64,000 nucleotides of DNA from Actinomycetota bacterium (lineage in GTDB: Bacteria > Actinomycetota > Thermoleophilia > Gaiellales > Gaiellaceae), in the NCBI GenBank assembly GCA_005883955.1, contig VAXH01000058.1:1-64000 (forward strand). Reading direction: 5' to 3'. Each line of letters opens with the position of its first letter. The stretch's first letter is position 1. Both the position numbers and the translations under genes were made by a program. Positions 50,383 to 57,471 of this stretch are shown here, one piece after another. The notes under the pieces are model-generated. The model was not told the origin of the DNA, did no database searches, and worked only from the letters and a program-made list of their open reading frames with translations.

Positions 50383-50438
50383 TGGCGGCCGCAGCAGCCG
50401 CTACGGCCTTTGGGCCGGCACCGCAGGCGACGCCTTAG
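50383..50438 (+). repeat. Double-hairpin extragenic repeat, degenerate copy
   Basis: TGGCGGCCGCAGCAGCCGCTACGGCCTTTGGGCCGGCACCGCAGGCGACGCCTTAGC. Confidence 0.55.
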
Positions 50439-51148
50439 CCCAACCTTTGCTCAAGAGCCCGCGTGAACCAGGTCACAGCCGACTCGAGTGCGTCGGGATC
50501 ATCCGACTTGAGTACGACTTCAACGTGGGGCCCGTGTGCGCCGAAGCTTGGATACGAGCCTACACGGACTTGGGGGTAGATCTCTAGTGTTTGCCTAAGA
50601 ATCGCGACGATCCGGCTCTCGGTCGTGCGGTAGGTGCGGCGCCAGGACGAGATCGGCGGGCCCGCTCGCAGCTCATTCTCGATCGTCTCGTACATCGCTT
50701 CCATCTCGGCCGGCAGGCCCGGGAGGACGTAGACGTTTTGGAGCAGGAAACCGGGCGCGCCGCCGAGCGGGTTGGCGAGCGGGCGGCTGCCGGCGGGGAG
50801 CATCGCCCAGCGGGCCGCGTATTCGGGGTCGTTGGGGAAATTGGCGCGCAAGCCGGCCGCAACCTGCGCGTACTCGGTCTGCTCGGCGCCGAAGGCCGCC
50901 GCGACGGCCTCGCGCGTGACGTCGTCGGGCGTGCCCCCCAGGCCGCCGGTGACGACAACGAGGTCGGCCCGGTCGCCCTGCTCGCGTAGCGTCGTCGCGA
51001 TCTCCTCGATCTCGTCCGGCACGACTGCGATCAGGCGGACAGCGATGCCGGCCGCCTCCAGGCGGCGAGCGAGCCAGCTGCCATTCGTGTTCTCGACGTC
51101 GCCGGAAAGGAGCTCGTTGCCGATCGTCACGATCGCGGCGGTCGCCAT
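50435..51148 (-). CDS. CinA-like/molybdopterin-binding domain protein
   Basis: AAIVTIGNELLSGDVENTNGSWLARRLEAAGI...LVVVTGGLGGTPDDVTREAVA...PGFLLQNVYVLPGLPAEMEAM. Confidence 0.9.
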   Translation of the reverse strand: MATAAIVTIGNELLSGDVENTNGSWLARRLEAAGIAVRLIAVVPDEIEEIATTLREQGDRADLVVVTGGLGGTPDDVTREAVAAAFGAEQTEYAQVAAGLRANFPNDPEYAARWAMLPAGSRPLANPLGGAPGFLLQNVYVLPGLPAEMEAMYETIENELRAGPPISSWRRTYRTTESRIVAILRQTLEIYPQVRVGSYPSFGAHGPHVEVVLKSDDPDALESAVTWFTRALEQRLG

Positions 51149-51167
51149 CGTCGGCCAGTATGGCTTC

Positions 51168-52091
51168 GTGGAGATTCGTCCGTTCGATGCCGCAGACAGC
51201 TCGGCCGCGGCCGAGCTCGTCCGACCTTTGCAGCCGGGCATCCTCGTCACCCCCGCCTACCTCGCCCATCGCGAGCGCTCCGAGCCCGAGCGCGCGCAGC
51301 GTCGCTCATGGCTCGCGCTCGAGGGAGGCGAGATCCTGGGCTTCGCCACCTCGGCGGTCAAGTGGGACGAGCCCGGGTCGGTCGGCCGGTTCTGGATCGG
51401 CGTCCGGCCGGACCGGCGTGAACGTGGGATAGGAGCCGCACTGTATGAGCTCGCGGAACGCCATGCCGGCGCGCTAGGGGTGCAGCGCGTGACCGTCGAG
51501 GTCGACGACGACCAGGACGGGCGCCGATTCGTCGAGGCGCGCGGCTTCGAACCCGTGTCGGCGGAGTTCATCTCGTCGCTCGATCCGCGGATGGCCGACC
51601 TCGGCGAGTTCGACGACCTCATGGCCGAAACCTCGGCCGCCGGCTTCGAGTTGACGACGCTGCAGGCGATGGCTCGCCGGCGCGACGACCTCACCGAGTT
51701 CTACGAGGCTGCGGGGGCGTGGCCGCCCGGAGGCGGGAATCGAATCACGGCCGAGGATCTGTGGCGGTTCATCTTCGAGCGGCCCGACCTGTCGTGGGAC
51801 GGCAGCTTCGTGATCCTCGACGAGCAGGGTCGGCTCGTTTCGCTGGCAAGCCTAGTGGTGGATCGTGCTAACCGGCGAGCCGAGAACGACTGGACCGCGA
51901 CCTTGCCCGACGTGCGCGGCCGCAGACTGGCGCTGCTCGGGAAGCTCGCGACGCTTCGCTGGGCTCGCGATGCCGGAATCCGCGAGATCGTCACCGCCAA
52001 CGACGATGACAATGTGCCGATGCTGACGCTCAACCAGCGCCTCGGTTACCGTCGCCTGTACGCGCAGGTCGAGCTCGCGCGGGCGCTCTAG
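51168..52091 (+). CDS. GNAT acetyltransferase (two tandem domains)
   Basis: VGRFWIGVRPDRRERGIGAALYELAERHA; ...AGIREIVTANDDDNVPMLTLNQRLGYRRL. Confidence 0.85.
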   Translation: MEIRPFDAADSSAAAELVRPLQPGILVTPAYLAHRERSEPERAQRRSWLALEGGEILGFATSAVKWDEPGSVGRFWIGVRPDRRERGIGAALYELAERHAGALGVQRVTVEVDDDQDGRRFVEARGFEPVSAEFISSLDPRMADLGEFDDLMAETSAAGFELTTLQAMARRRDDLTEFYEAAGAWPPGGGNRITAEDLWRFIFERPDLSWDGSFVILDEQGRLVSLASLVVDRANRRAENDWTATLPDVRGRRLALLGKLATLRWARDAGIREIVTANDDDNVPMLTLNQRLGYRRLYAQVELARAL

Positions 52092-52906
52092 GACGAGAGC
52101 GGAAAGGCTTTCCGCGCCAGTGCCGGCAGCACCTGCGCCGTCACCCAGACCGGCGTCGTCGTATAGCGCGTCGAGTAGCGGAAGCTGCCGTCGGGCCGGT
52201 GGAGGCGCTCGAGATACCCCAGCGCGCCGCGCGGTGGGGGCTTTCCGGCGGCAAGAAAGGCCTGGACGGCCCAGGCCGTCGACTGTGCGTCGGAGCCGCG
52301 CCCGAGCGTCAGCTCAAAGCCACCGTCGCGGTTGCGGAAGCGAAGGAGGAACCGCAGCGCGCGCTGAATCGGGCGGCCGGTAACTCGCGCGGCGCGAAGC
52401 GCTTCGACGACGGTGGCCGTGTCGTTCGAGTCGGCCGCGCCGGTCGTCCAGCCCCAGCCGCCGGCACGAGTCTGGCGAGCGAGCAGCCAGCGGATCGTGC
52501 GGCGGTGAACCGGCGCGCCGACCGCTCGAAGGGCGAGCACGCTCCAGGCCGTGCCGTTGACGAGCGGGCCAACCGAGCCGTTCGGGCGTTGGAGCGCGCG
52601 TAGCCGCCTCAAGGGGCGGTCGGAGTTCTGGCCCAGAGCGTTCTCGGCGAGTACGACGAGGGCGAGCCCGGCGGCGCTCGTGAACTCGGATTCGTGCTGG
52701 ACGAGATAGCCGGCAGTTGCGCCACTCGGACTCGCACCAGCCGCGCGGAGGCCGAGGACGGCCCAGGCCGTGAGCTGCGGATACGCGGGAGAGCCGGCCT
52801 CGGCGAAGCCGCCGCTTTCGAGCTGGTGTGCTTGCAGGAAACGGATCCCGCCTGCCGTCGGCGACGCGGCGACAGCCGCGGCTGCGGCGAGCGCGACGAG
52901 CCTCAC
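52088..52906 (-). CDS. Secreted alpha6-alpha6 barrel protein (prenyltransferase/squalene-oxidase repeats), transcobalamin alpha-domain-like
   Basis: Repeats GGFAEAGSPAYPQLTAWAVLGLRAAG / NGSVGPLVNGTAWSVLALRAVG / GGWGWTTGAADSNDTATVVEALRAA / GGFELTLGRGSDAQSTAWAVQAFLAAG; signal peptide; GTGA overlap with upstream S-component gene. Confidence 0.8.
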   Translation of the reverse strand: MRLVALAAAAAVAASPTAGGIRFLQAHQLESGGFAEAGSPAYPQLTAWAVLGLRAAGASPSGATAGYLVQHESEFTSAAGLALVVLAENALGQNSDRPLRRLRALQRPNGSVGPLVNGTAWSVLALRAVGAPVHRRTIRWLLARQTRAGGWGWTTGAADSNDTATVVEALRAARVTGRPIQRALRFLLRFRNRDGGFELTLGRGSDAQSTAWAVQAFLAAGKPPPRGALGYLERLHRPDGSFRYSTRYTTTPVWVTAQVLPALARKAFPLSS

Positions 52907-53577
52907 GTCCAGACGACCTCGGTCCGGAGGCGCCTCCCGTAGCGCTCGAGCAGTCGGCGCAACTCGGGTCCGGCGACGAGCGCTATCACGACGTTGCCGA
53001 TCGCATGCGCGGCGTCGAACCAGAAGCCGCGGCCGAGCTGGACCGTCAGCGCGGCCCAGGTGTGCGGGTAGAAGCTGTACCACTCCCAGACGTCCATCAG
53101 CCCGCTGAAGGCGAAGCCGAGGACGAAACAGAGGAGCGCGAACGGAACGCGGCGTCGGACGAGCGGCGCAGCGAGGGCGCCGGCGACCCCGCAGCCGCCC
53201 CAGGCCAGCATCTGCCACGGCGTCCAGGGGCCCTGCCCGAGGAAGAAATTCGAAGCCAGCGCGGCGAGCGCGCCGACCCCGAAGCCCGCGCGGGCGCCGA
53301 GTGCGGCGCCGGCCGCGACCGCGATCACCGTCACGGGCTGAACACCGGGGATCGCGGCGAAGAGGACGCGCCCGCCTGCTGCCGCCGCCGCGAGGGTGGC
53401 GACAAGGGTGAGTGTCTTGCTCACCCCGAGGCCGGGATCGAGCCACGCTGCGCCTGCGACGAGGAGCGCCGCGGCAAGCAGGAGGAGCGCCAGCGCTCCT
53501 TGCCTCGGCGTCGTCGCCGCCCAGGCGGCAGCCGCAAAGGCAATCGCGGCGGCGAACGTGATCACCGCCCTAGGCAT
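52903..53577 (-). CDS. ECF transporter S component (substrate-specific membrane subunit)
   Basis: Multi-TM; GARAGFGVGALAALASNFFLGQGPWTPWQMLAWGGCGVAGAL; position in ECF operon. Confidence 0.82.
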   Translation of the reverse strand: MPRAVITFAAAIAFAAAAWAATTPRQGALALLLLAAALLVAGAAWLDPGLGVSKTLTLVATLAAAAAGGRVLFAAIPGVQPVTVIAVAAGAALGARAGFGVGALAALASNFFLGQGPWTPWQMLAWGGCGVAGALAAPLVRRRVPFALLCFVLGFAFSGLMDVWEWYSFYPHTWAALTVQLGRGFWFDAAHAIGNVVIALVAGPELRRLLERYGRRLRTEVVWT

Positions 53578-54934
53578 GCACGAGCTCCCGGTCGAGCGCG
53601 AGTGAGACGATCCGGTCGGCCACCGCCCTTGCGAACGCCTCGTCGTGGGTAACGACGAGCGTGGCGCGCCTCCTGTTCGCCCTCAGTAGCGCGGCAAGCT
53701 CGTGCTTCCGCTCGGGGTCGACGCCGCGCGTCGGCTCGTCGAGGACGAGCAGATCGGGCTCGGGCGCGAGCACCGCCGCGAGCGCGAGCCGCTCGCGCTC
53801 GCCGCTCGAGAGGTCGCGCGGGTGACGAGCCTCGTGGCCGGCGAGCCCGACGGCGGCCAGTGCCCGGCTCGCGGCCGCCAGGTCGCCGTGGACACCGACC
53901 GAGACCTCCTCGTCCGCACGCTCGCGCAGGACATAACGGCCAGGATCCTGCGAGAGGTAGGTGGCCCGGCCCCGGCGGTCGACGCGGCCGCTCTGCGGCT
54001 CGAGCAGCCCGGCCGCGAGCTTCGCCAGGGTGGTCTTGCCGGATCCGTTCGGGCCGACGAGCGCAACGATCTCGCCCCGCCGCAATTCGAGGCTGGCGTC
54101 GTCGAGGACGAGCAGGTGGTCTTCGTAAGCGTAGGAGACTCCGTCCAGGCGAGACGTGACTTCGCCGAAGTGATGTAGGTGTACACCTACATCACCACCG
54201 GCCGAAACGAAGAGGGGATGGTGCTCTTCCAGCCAGGCCCGGGCCCGGCCGACCGGGCCGTCGAACGTCAGACGCCCGTCGTCGAGCAACAGCACCCGGT
54301 CGCAGAGCTCGAGCGGCAAGGCCGGCCGCTGCTCGGACAGCAGCACCGCCGTGCCGCGCTCCCGGGCGAGCCGTAGGGCCAGCTCGAGCAGCGCCTTGGC
54401 GCCCTCAGGGTCGAGCTGCGATGTCGGCTCGTCCAGGAGCAGGAGCCGCGGCTCGAGCGCGAGCGTCGCAGCCAAGCACACACGTTGCAACTCGCCGCCG
54501 GAGAGCTCGGCCACTAGCCGCCCGGAGAGATGCTCGGCACCCACCGACGCGAGCGCCGCGAGCGCGCGCGCCTCGATCTCCTGCGGTGGCGTGCCGACGT
54601 TCTCCAGGCCAAAGGCGACCTCGTTGAGGACGCGCGTGAATACGACCTGATCCTCGGGATCCTGGAACAGCGTCGCGACGGTTCCCGCCAGCTGAGCCGG
54701 GCCGTGCCGCCGTGTGTCGAGGCCGGCGAGCTCGACCCGGCCCGAGAAGCGCCCGCCGTGGAAATGCGGAACGAGCCCCGCGAAGGCGCGAAGCAGTGTC
54801 GACTTGCCGGAGCCGGAGCAGCCGAGCACCAACGTGACCTCTCCCGGGGTCAGACCCACGGACACGTCCCGAAGAGCCGGGACGGTCGAGCCCGGATACG
54901 CGAAGGAAAGGCTTTCCGCGCGCGCTAGAGCCAC
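53570..54934 (-). CDS. ECF transporter fused double ABC ATPase (EcfA-A')
   Basis: Two complete ABC modules: GCSGSGKSTLLRAFAG/LSGGELQRVCLAATLALEPRLLLLDEP and GPNGSGKTTLAKLAAG/LSSGERERLALAAVLAPEPDLLVLDEP. Confidence 0.92.
   Translation of the reverse strand: MALARAESLSFAYPGSTVPALRDVSVGLTPGEVTLVLGCSGSGKSTLLRAFAGLVPHFHGGRFSGRVELAGLDTRRHGPAQLAGTVATLFQDPEDQVVFTRVLNEVAFGLENVGTPPQEIEARALAALASVGAEHLSGRLVAELSGGELQRVCLAATLALEPRLLLLDEPTSQLDPEGAKALLELALRLARERGTAVLLSEQRPALPLELCDRVLLLDDGRLTFDGPVGRARAWLEEHHPLFVSAGGDVGVHLHHFGEVTSRLDGVSYAYEDHLLVLDDASLELRRGEIVALVGPNGSGKTTLAKLAAGLLEPQSGRVDRRGRATYLSQDPGRYVLRERADEEVSVGVHGDLAAASRALAAVGLAGHEARHPRDLSSGERERLALAAVLAPEPDLLVLDEPTRGVDPERKHELAALLRANRRRATLVVTHDEAFARAVADRIVSLALDRELVHA
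54170..54195. repeat. Perfect 26-bp inverted repeat inside the ATPase gene (inter-module linker)
   Basis: GTGATGTAGGTGT|ACACCTACATCAC, 13+13 with no loop. Confidence 0.9.
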
Positions 54935-55623
54935 AGCACCCCCACGACCACGGCGAGCGCAGCGCCCGCCAGCGCCAGCGGCTCGCGGAGCCCCCAGCGT
55001 GGCTGCGGGAGCCGGGTCGCGTCCGGGCGTCCGAAGCCCCGAGCCTCCATCGCCTCGGCGAGGCTCAGGCTCCGCTCCAGCGAGCCCGCAAGGAGCGGGG
55101 AGAGCAGTCGCGCCCGCCCGCGAATCCCTTCGGGCTCGACGCCGCGGCCGCGCAGAGCCTCCACCAGCCCGGCCGCGTCCCGCTCGAGCGCCGGGACGAG
55201 CCTCGTCGCGAGCGCGACCGCGAGCACGGAGCGCCGCGCGAAGCCTGCTGCCTGCACCAGCCGGTCGTGGTCGAGCCAGAGGGCGTACGCAGAGAAGGCG
55301 AGCGAGACAGCGGCCAGACGGCAGGCGTTGAAGAGCGCGCCCGACAGCTCGGTCGACGTCACGTCGAGGGTCCCGACCACGGGGATCGTCGGCCCGCTCC
55401 AGAACACCGTCCCCGGCAGGCGTTCGACAAACGGCGTCAGCACGAACAGCGCCGAGGCCGAGCCCAGCGAACCGATCAGGTACGGCCAGCGGCGCGAAAC
55501 CGGGGCACGCAGGCAGACGACGAGCAGCACCGCCGCCAGCGCCGCCACCGAGGCGGTGTGCCTGGCCAGCAGCGCAGCCGCTGCCAGGCCGAACAGGAGC
55601 GCCGCTGCCGGAGCCGGCCTCAC
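54925..55623 (-). CDS. ECF transporter T component
   Basis: ALWLDHDRLVQAAGFARRSVLAVALATRLVPALERDAAGLVEALRGRGVEP...LAEAMEARGFG (EcfT A-R-G coupling motifs). Confidence 0.88.
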   Translation of the reverse strand: MRPAPAAALLFGLAAAALLARHTASVAALAAVLLVVCLRAPVSRRWPYLIGSLGSASALFVLTPFVERLPGTVFWSGPTIPVVGTLDVTSTELSGALFNACRLAAVSLAFSAYALWLDHDRLVQAAGFARRSVLAVALATRLVPALERDAAGLVEALRGRGVEPEGIRGRARLLSPLLAGSLERSLSLAEAMEARGFGRPDATRLPQPRWGLREPLALAGAALAVVVGVLWL

Positions 55624-56303
55624 CGCAGCCCCGAGTAACGGAAGCGGACCAGCTTCGGGTCGGCGAGCAGCCGCCGCGCCGCCGTCGGGCCGATCACGAA
55701 GCGCACCGGCCCCCCGGCGCCAGAGGTCGTCGCCGACAGCGGCACGTCGGCCTTCGTCAGGAAGAGGACGTTCGCGTCGCCGATCCTGTCCGCGGTCACC
55801 GCCTTCGCGTGAATCAGCTTCCCGAGCGCGCGCGCCCGCGGCTCGAGCGCCTTCGAGTCGTAGACGATCGCCGCCGTGCGAGTCTTGCCCGCGTAGCCGT
55901 GCAGGAACGGCTCCGGAAACGCGCCGACCACGATCGGGACGTGGATGGCGTGCTTCCACGAGCGGTAGTCCCACCACTCGACGTCGCCGGGATGGAGGGT
56001 GTAGTCGGCGGCGCCCCGATCGGCCTCGTACCCGTTGACGAAGTAGAACCAGTCCCGCCGGCCCGAGCGGTCGCCCGAGACGCCCTTGATCGACTGGACG
56101 AAGCGGCCGCCGTAGCTCGTCCTCACCTTCACCGCGTGCTGGAGCGCCTGCATCGCGGTCTGCCCCGCCTTGACCTTGTCGACGAGCAGGACCTTCTGCC
56201 CGCGGTCGCGGGTGATCCAGAGCGTCGCGCTCCCGTTGGTGTGGGAAGAGCCGCAGCCCGCGAGGGCAGTGACGACAAGCCCGGCGGCCGCCACGCGCCT
56301 CAC
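55620..56303 (-). CDS. DUF4430-domain lipoprotein (transcobalamin beta-domain-like)
   Basis: Lipobox LAGC; TAMQALQHAVKVRTSYGGRFVQSIKG...RRDWFYFVNGYEADRGAADYTLHPGDVEWWDYRSW. Confidence 0.75.
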   Translation of the reverse strand: MRRVAAAGLVVTALAGCGSSHTNGSATLWITRDRGQKVLLVDKVKAGQTAMQALQHAVKVRTSYGGRFVQSIKGVSGDRSGRRDWFYFVNGYEADRGAADYTLHPGDVEWWDYRSWKHAIHVPIVVGAFPEPFLHGYAGKTRTAAIVYDSKALEPRARALGKLIHAKAVTADRIGDANVLFLTKADVPLSATTSGAGGPVRFVIGPTAARRLLADPKLVRFRYSGLR

Positions 56304-56911
56304 CGGCCGCTGTACGTCCGCGAGCGGATCGCCCCGGTCTTCGCGACCCGGATCGTGTAGCGGCCGAGCCGCGCGCAGACCACGCCAGTCGCCGAGCTGA
56401 CCCGTCGTCCGTTCAGCGTGTAGACGACGCCGCGCACACGCGAGGCACGGCCGGCGTCGTTACGGCCGGTCGCGAAGAAGCACCGCTTGCCCTTGACGAT
56501 CGAGGTCTCGACCTCCAACGTCAGCGGCCCAGCCGGGCCGCTGAAGGTCGCCCAGTACCAGAGCACCGTGTCGCCGTCTTTGACCGTCACGTGGTCGGCG
56601 CCGACCGGCGGGACGATCCCGTTTACCTTGAAGATCCAACCACTCGAGCCACCGGCCGGATAGCGGCCGATCTGGTCGACATACGGGCCGAACGCGGTCG
56701 ACGCTACGTGGTAGTAGAACTCGCCGGCCAAACTGGCCGCCTCGAGCGCGTCGAGCGCGTTGGCCTTCACGTTCAACGTCGGCTCGGTGGTGCCGAAGAT
56801 CGTCTGCGTCTTGCCTTCGACGCGAACGTGCACGCGTGCGGCGAATGCCGCGGGGACAAGCACGAACAAGGCAGCGAGCACTGCCAACAGGCTGAAAGAG
56901 CGTCGGTACAC
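56300..56911 (-). CDS. Secreted DUF4430-domain protein (transcobalamin beta-domain-like)
   Basis: Signal peptide; NALDALEAASLAGEFYYHVASTAFGPYVDQIGRYPAGGSSGWIFKVNGIVPPVGADHVTVKDGDTVLWYW. Confidence 0.8.
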   Translation of the reverse strand: MYRRSFSLLAVLAALFVLVPAAFAARVHVRVEGKTQTIFGTTEPTLNVKANALDALEAASLAGEFYYHVASTAFGPYVDQIGRYPAGGSSGWIFKVNGIVPPVGADHVTVKDGDTVLWYWATFSGPAGPLTLEVETSIVKGKRCFFATGRNDAGRASRVRGVVYTLNGRRVSSATGVVCARLGRYTIRVAKTGAIRSRTYSGR

Positions 56912-56944
56912 GAATCCTCCTTCCGCGAGGGGTTCGGGTTCGGG

Positions 56945-57095
56945 CGAACGACAGGTCTTCTGACTCGGGGCTCCCTCTACCGCCGCCTTCCCGGCTCTCG
57001 CCAGTGGCTCTTGGCGGGAGAGCGTCTCCCCTCACAGCGGCGGGACCGTCCCGGATTTGCACCGGGTTCCCTTACCGCTCGCCTTTCGGCCGAGA
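56945..57095 (-). promoter_or_regulatory. Cobalamin (AdoCbl) riboswitch
   Basis: Minus strand: GGTAAGGGAACCCGGTGCAAATCCGGGACGGTCCCGCCGCTGTGA...AGCCACTGGC...GGGAAGGCGGCGG...GAGTCAGAAGACCTGTC; B12-box and P3-P6 motifs read directly. Confidence 0.95.
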
Positions 57096-57108
57096 CTACC
57101 ATCCCTCC

Positions 57109-57471
57109 GTGTCGAGCTCACGTCTCTCGGCCTGGCTGCCGGTGATCGTCTGGGCCGCGGTCATCTTCGCGCTCTCGTCGATTCCCCACCTGGGCACCGG
57201 CCTCGGCACCTGGGACACGATCCTGCGCAAGGGCGCGCATGTGACGGAGTACGCGGTCCTCGGCCTGCTGCTGCTACGGGCCGTCGGCCGCGAGCTGCCC
57301 GCCTTCCTGCTCAGCGTCAGTTACGCGATCACCGACGAGCTCCATCAGCACTTCGTCCGGGGGCGGCACGCATCGCCCGTAGACGTCGCGATCGACTCGA
57401 CCGGCGTCCTGATCGGGATCGTTCTCTTCCACCGGGCAAGGCGTGCGGTCACGGATCGACCGGCCCCATGA
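57109..57471 (+). CDS. VanZ-like family protein
   Basis: WLPVIVWAAVIFALSSIP...KGAHVTEYAVLGLLLLRA...ITDELHQHFVRGRHASPVDVAIDSTGVLIG. Confidence 0.9.
   Translation: MSSSRLSAWLPVIVWAAVIFALSSIPHLGTGLGTWDTILRKGAHVTEYAVLGLLLLRAVGRELPAFLLSVSYAITDELHQHFVRGRHASPVDVAIDSTGVLIGIVLFHRARRAVTDRPAP

Follow-up and report, generated by a model that had tools for sequence, protein, structure and literature searches.

The closest described transporter is ECF-CbrT of Lactobacillus delbrueckii (PDB ID: 6FNP), which transports cobalamin and cobinamide and whose ECF module is common to several S components (PMC5997447). Outside the ECF family, B12 is captured by the human carriers transcobalamin, intrinsic factor and haptocorrin, which pair a β-domain fold with an α/α barrel, and by the BtuG surface B12-binding lipoproteins of Bacteroides (PMC6143338). 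Within the 64,000-nucleotide stretch of DNA analyzed here (the window), an operon of six genes resembles each of these in part. It shares with ECF-CbrT a CbrT-like S component, an ECF module and a link to B12, but it carries EcfT and a fused EcfAA' in its own operon, under a riboswitch, and adds three extracytoplasmic proteins and, in many relatives, a fusion of the S component to one of them. Like the human carriers it encodes a β-domain fold (D1) and an α/α barrel as a pair; unlike in human transcobalamin the two are separate genes, joined in a single polypeptide only in a distant relative (L104), the barrel is closer to terpene cyclases and has no transcobalamin α-domain match, and the system is bacterial and coupled to an ABC-type importer rather than to endocytosis. 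With BtuG, which belongs to other organisms and another envelope, it would share a lipoprotein that captures B12 at the surface and is linked to a transporter.

The operon is very probably a cobamide importer. We consider it likely that it serves B12-repressed uptake through the CbrT-like ECF transporter, with D1 and the barrel as a two-part capture device and D2, a second DUF4430 protein, as an accessory. ECF-CbrT is known; in the open literature searched we found neither its combination with a capture module of transcobalamin type nor the fusion of S component and barrel, and the papers there on DUF4430, CbrTUV, BL0693 and SCO2321-2325 did not describe the six-part system.

A riboswitch-headed operon with a CbrT-like ECF transporter

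The leader of the operon (56933..57101, minus strand) matches the cobalamin riboswitch covariance model RF00174 from 57101 to 56933 over its full length (model positions 1-189), with 101.8 bits and E = 2.6e-24 in cmscan against a gathering threshold of 31.5, which bears out the riboswitch that an earlier note on this DNA had recognized. It is the sole RF00174 match in the genome bin searched (2.56 Mb, 86% complete). Below it, on the minus strand, lie D1, D2, EcfT, fused EcfAA', the S component and the barrel in that order, with successive overlaps of 4, 4, 10, 8, and 4 nt. The six overlapping genes had likewise been claimed earlier, and their intact frames, each with one terminal stop, and their Pfam families agree with that account. 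Reading of the flanking sequence places a divergent VanZ-like open frame at 57004..57471 (plus strand), the 5' end of which overlaps the riboswitch on the opposite strand, and a CinA/MoaB-like protein at 50435..51250 (minus strand), two genes downstream of the operon.

Both the EcfT (PF02361) and the tandem ABC_tran parts of an ECF transporter are present. The transmembrane coupling subunit EcfT (54925..55623, minus strand) matches PF02361 CbiQ with 41.9 bits, and the fused EcfA-EcfA' ATPase (53570..54934, minus strand) matches ABC_tran in two stretches with 182 bits; its best NCBIfam match is an ECF transporter ATPase, at 266 bits and under the family cut-off. The S component (52903..53577, minus strand) has no Pfam family above cut-off (DUF6580 scores 25.8 versus 27 bits). 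A profile built from 23 homologs and compared with the PDB identifies 6fnp_A, the CbrT chain of ECF-CbrT, as its best match with E = 5.2e-26, the runner-up standing at E = 0.005. The transporter had been proposed as an ECF system; that assignment holds, and its S component is now tied specifically to CbrT, a homology that connects the operon to B12 without recourse to the riboswitch.

The extracytoplasmic proteins and their conservation

D1 (56300..56911, minus strand; PF14478, 45.2 bits) is a secreted DUF4430 protein with an FGPYV motif. A profile of 19 homologs compared with the PDB ranks transcobalamin-2 first, weakly (E = 0.07), with a GPY motif common to the two. D1 adopts the transcobalamin β-domain fold: in a Foldseek search of the PDB with its AlphaFold (AF2) model (pLDDT 92), the β domains of transcobalamin, haptocorrin and intrinsic factor occupy 17 of the 19 top places, and the other two belong to 3u7z, a Ruminococcus gnavus protein. 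The Foldseek list includes 5np4, by its PDB title the isolated human transcobalamin β domain with bound cyanocobalamin, and a free β domain can therefore hold cobalamin. D2 (55620..56303, minus strand; PF14478, 54.3 bits) is a DUF4430 lipoprotein with a C-terminal extension and a lipobox, LAGC, in which Cys17 is at least 90% conserved among 30 homologs. It is a DUF4430 type different from D1, and its profile returned a single weak match from the PDB and none to transcobalamin. Of the earlier suggestion of transcobalamin β-like DUF4430 proteins, the part concerning D1 stands and the part concerning D2 is weaker. The profile of a further DUF4430-like protein, which fills a gap, gave nothing meaningful against the PDB.

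The last gene (52088..52906, minus strand; SQHop_cyclase_C 40 bits, Prenyltrans 30 bits) encodes a barrel protein predicted to be secreted or membrane-tethered. Its AF2 model is an α/α toroid (pLDDT 94.9, pTM 0.91). The best 50 PDB matches of the model are all terpene cyclases or prenyltransferases, and the best sequence-profile matches are likewise of these kinds, including squalene-hopene cyclases. PF01122, the transcobalamin α domain, gave no match to the barrel at E ≤ 1 in a Pfam search, and none in 27 genomes in a search run without a positive control. With terpene cyclases and prenyltransferases as the nearest displayed neighbors and no PF01122 match, descent from the transcobalamin α domain is left unsupported. 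The confident toroid model upholds the α6-α6 barrel of the earlier note, and on this model the protein has the right kind of fold, whereas its identity as a transcobalamin α domain is weaker. Two motifs, QST[AS]W and TPxWVTxQ, are nearly invariant across 112 sequences, which suggests a binding surface on the barrel. The protein bears an N-terminal hydrophobic segment or, in relatives, is fused behind a hydrophobic linker, and it therefore probably acts outside the cell.

We scanned public genomes and collected 80 loci, mostly labeled as Thermoleophilia or one of its orders. All six parts (D1, D2, T, AA', S and barrel) are present at 37 of the 40 loci that extend 5 kb or more beyond the barrel on its upstream side, the remaining three having the barrel alone. 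Among relatives with sufficient sequence on that side, most have RF00174 ahead of the operon, L069 being an exception. Relatives share the arrangement much more often than chance would allow, in line with the co-conservation of barrel, DUF4430 and ECF genes under B12 riboswitches that had been anticipated. The S component and the barrel form a single open frame in 37 of the 80 loci, with one hydrophobic segment and an Arg-rich patch at the junction; natural fusions include L175, from Svornostia abyssi, and L164. Such a frame agrees with a barrel anchored to the S component on the outer side of the membrane. In a separate set of relatives with enough flank, 23 have both D1 and the barrel, four have neither and one has D1 only (Fisher p = 2.4e-4, uncorrected for phylogeny). 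Three loci of the same family (L037, L041 and L045) have a reduced operon of riboswitch, short D2 (a DUF4430 lipoprotein), EcfT, EcfAA' and S component; D1 and the barrel are missing from these operons, and the pair is thus dispensable in some such systems.

At L050 D1 is present and no barrel was detected in the ∼6 kb that follow the S component, and at L137, L138, and L194 there are solitary barrel homologs, with the other five genes not detected nearby.

A different division of labor would have the ECF-CbrT system import B12 that D1 and D2 bind by themselves, the barrel being a scaffold or docking platform for the S component. The cyanocobalamin-bound isolated β domain in the PDB, the relatives that keep a short DUF4430 lipoprotein and lack both D1 and the barrel, and the want of a specific transcobalamin match for the barrel are all consistent with binding of this kind. 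We nevertheless regard it as unlikely, because D1 and the barrel are present or absent together, and because the two near-invariant motifs suggest that the barrel contributes a binding surface of its own.

Relation to BtuFCD and the compound imported

The genome encodes a B12-dependent NrdJ (568 bits) and a mutase-type B12 domain. In the genome bin (86% complete), cobQ, taken as a marker of B12 synthesis, was not found over cut-off, and neither was a FecCD/BtuC permease found. We compared the distribution of full-length FecCD across 20 genomes of the family with completeness of 91 to 98%: it occurs in one of the 12 genomes that have the S component versus seven of the eight that do not (p = 7.7e-4, uncorrected), and G007 is a family genome with both transporters. 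A cobalamin-class riboswitch is present at all eight full-length FecCD loci. The one FecCD locus read (L196:3171-5958, plus strand), in a sister genome without the ECF system, has a row of BtuF-, BtuC- and BtuD-like genes below the riboswitch. In the family, the ECF system and riboswitch-controlled BtuFCD are almost mutually exclusive, as expected of two systems that substitute for each other. Like the ECF operon, BtuFCD is riboswitch-controlled B12 uptake and fills the same niche in the sister genomes, but its binding protein and membrane subunits are unrelated to those of the operon.

The same distribution bears on whether the operon could import some other B12-regulated compound, for instance cobalt or a precursor of the lower ligand like dimethylbenzimidazole. 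Cobalt transporters also stand under B12 riboswitches (PMC2667541), and EcfT is a match to the CbiQ family. Such a substrate is nonetheless very improbable: the S component is related to CbrT, which in tests imports cobalamin and cobinamide (PMC5997447), the distribution of the operon mirrors that of BtuFCD, and with no cobQ over cut-off in the genome, a supply of cobalt or of a lower ligand by itself would probably be insufficient.

A slimmer chance still is an enzymatic role for the barrel, such as that of a secreted hydrolase or terpene cyclase-like protein modifying either the cobamide or a lipid of the membrane. This role is in keeping with squalene-hopene and other terpene cyclases as its nearest displayed sequences and folds, but it is disfavored by a degenerate class II cyclase DXDD motif, which reads D-S-N-D here, is strict in only 23 of 112 barrel homologs and carries Asn in third position in 62 of 112, and by the probably extracellular location.

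Proposed capture mechanism and distant relatives

For cobamide capture by D1 and the barrel followed by ECF import, we propose the following course. B12 would repress the operon through the riboswitch. EcfT and the fused EcfAA' would energize the CbrT-like S component, through which the cobamide would cross the membrane. Outside the cell, the secreted D1 and the toroid, which would be kept at the membrane next to the S component, would form the two-part device. They would sandwich the cobamide in the manner of transcobalamin with its two domains, and the captured molecule would be handed to the S component; D2 may act as an accessory anchored receptor. The hand-over, part of the original proposal, is supported by the S-barrel fusions with their hydrophobic segment, and from these we infer delivery itself. 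Closure of D1 and the barrel on B12 in the manner of transcobalamin is well motivated, and we infer it by analogy with the human protein. To the stricter version, a bacterial two-part transcobalamin in which a free β protein and a toroid, carried on the S component or fused with it, close around cobamides and load the ECF importer, we would give even odds.

If the proposed uptake route is correct, ECF-type B12 importers would gain extracytoplasmic capture proteins, a bacterial counterpart of transcobalamin would be at hand, and it would be explained how B12-requiring soil Thermoleophilia may obtain B12. The two-part transcobalamin, if true, would give mammalian B12 carriers and bacterial import a mechanism in common, and perhaps a β-domain ancestry as well. 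A function would also be suggested for part of the DUF4430 family, seldom mentioned in the open literature searched, and for the NCBIfam SCO2321 family.

Other Actinomycetota, among them genomes that encode a SCO2321-family protein, have T, AA' and S side by side with a barrel protein and a DUF4430-like protein. The Streptomyces SCO2321-type cluster (NCBIfam NF053823) shares with the operon the barrel, a predicted membrane-anchored DUF4430-like protein, EcfT, EcfAA' and the S component; it differs in that the barrel gene comes first, no cobalamin riboswitch (RF00174) was found near the cluster in Streptomyces-type relatives, and its NCBIfam name states no function. Two loci with a SCO2321-family protein, L092 and L093, have these five parts in such a cluster, with no RF00174 found nearby. 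The substrate of these clusters may differ from that of the operon. In a more distant actinobacterium (L104:7056-8612, minus strand), a single polypeptide encoded downstream of a cobalamin riboswitch combines a barrel with a DUF4430-like domain, in the domain order of transcobalamin and with a hydrophobic C-terminal stretch.
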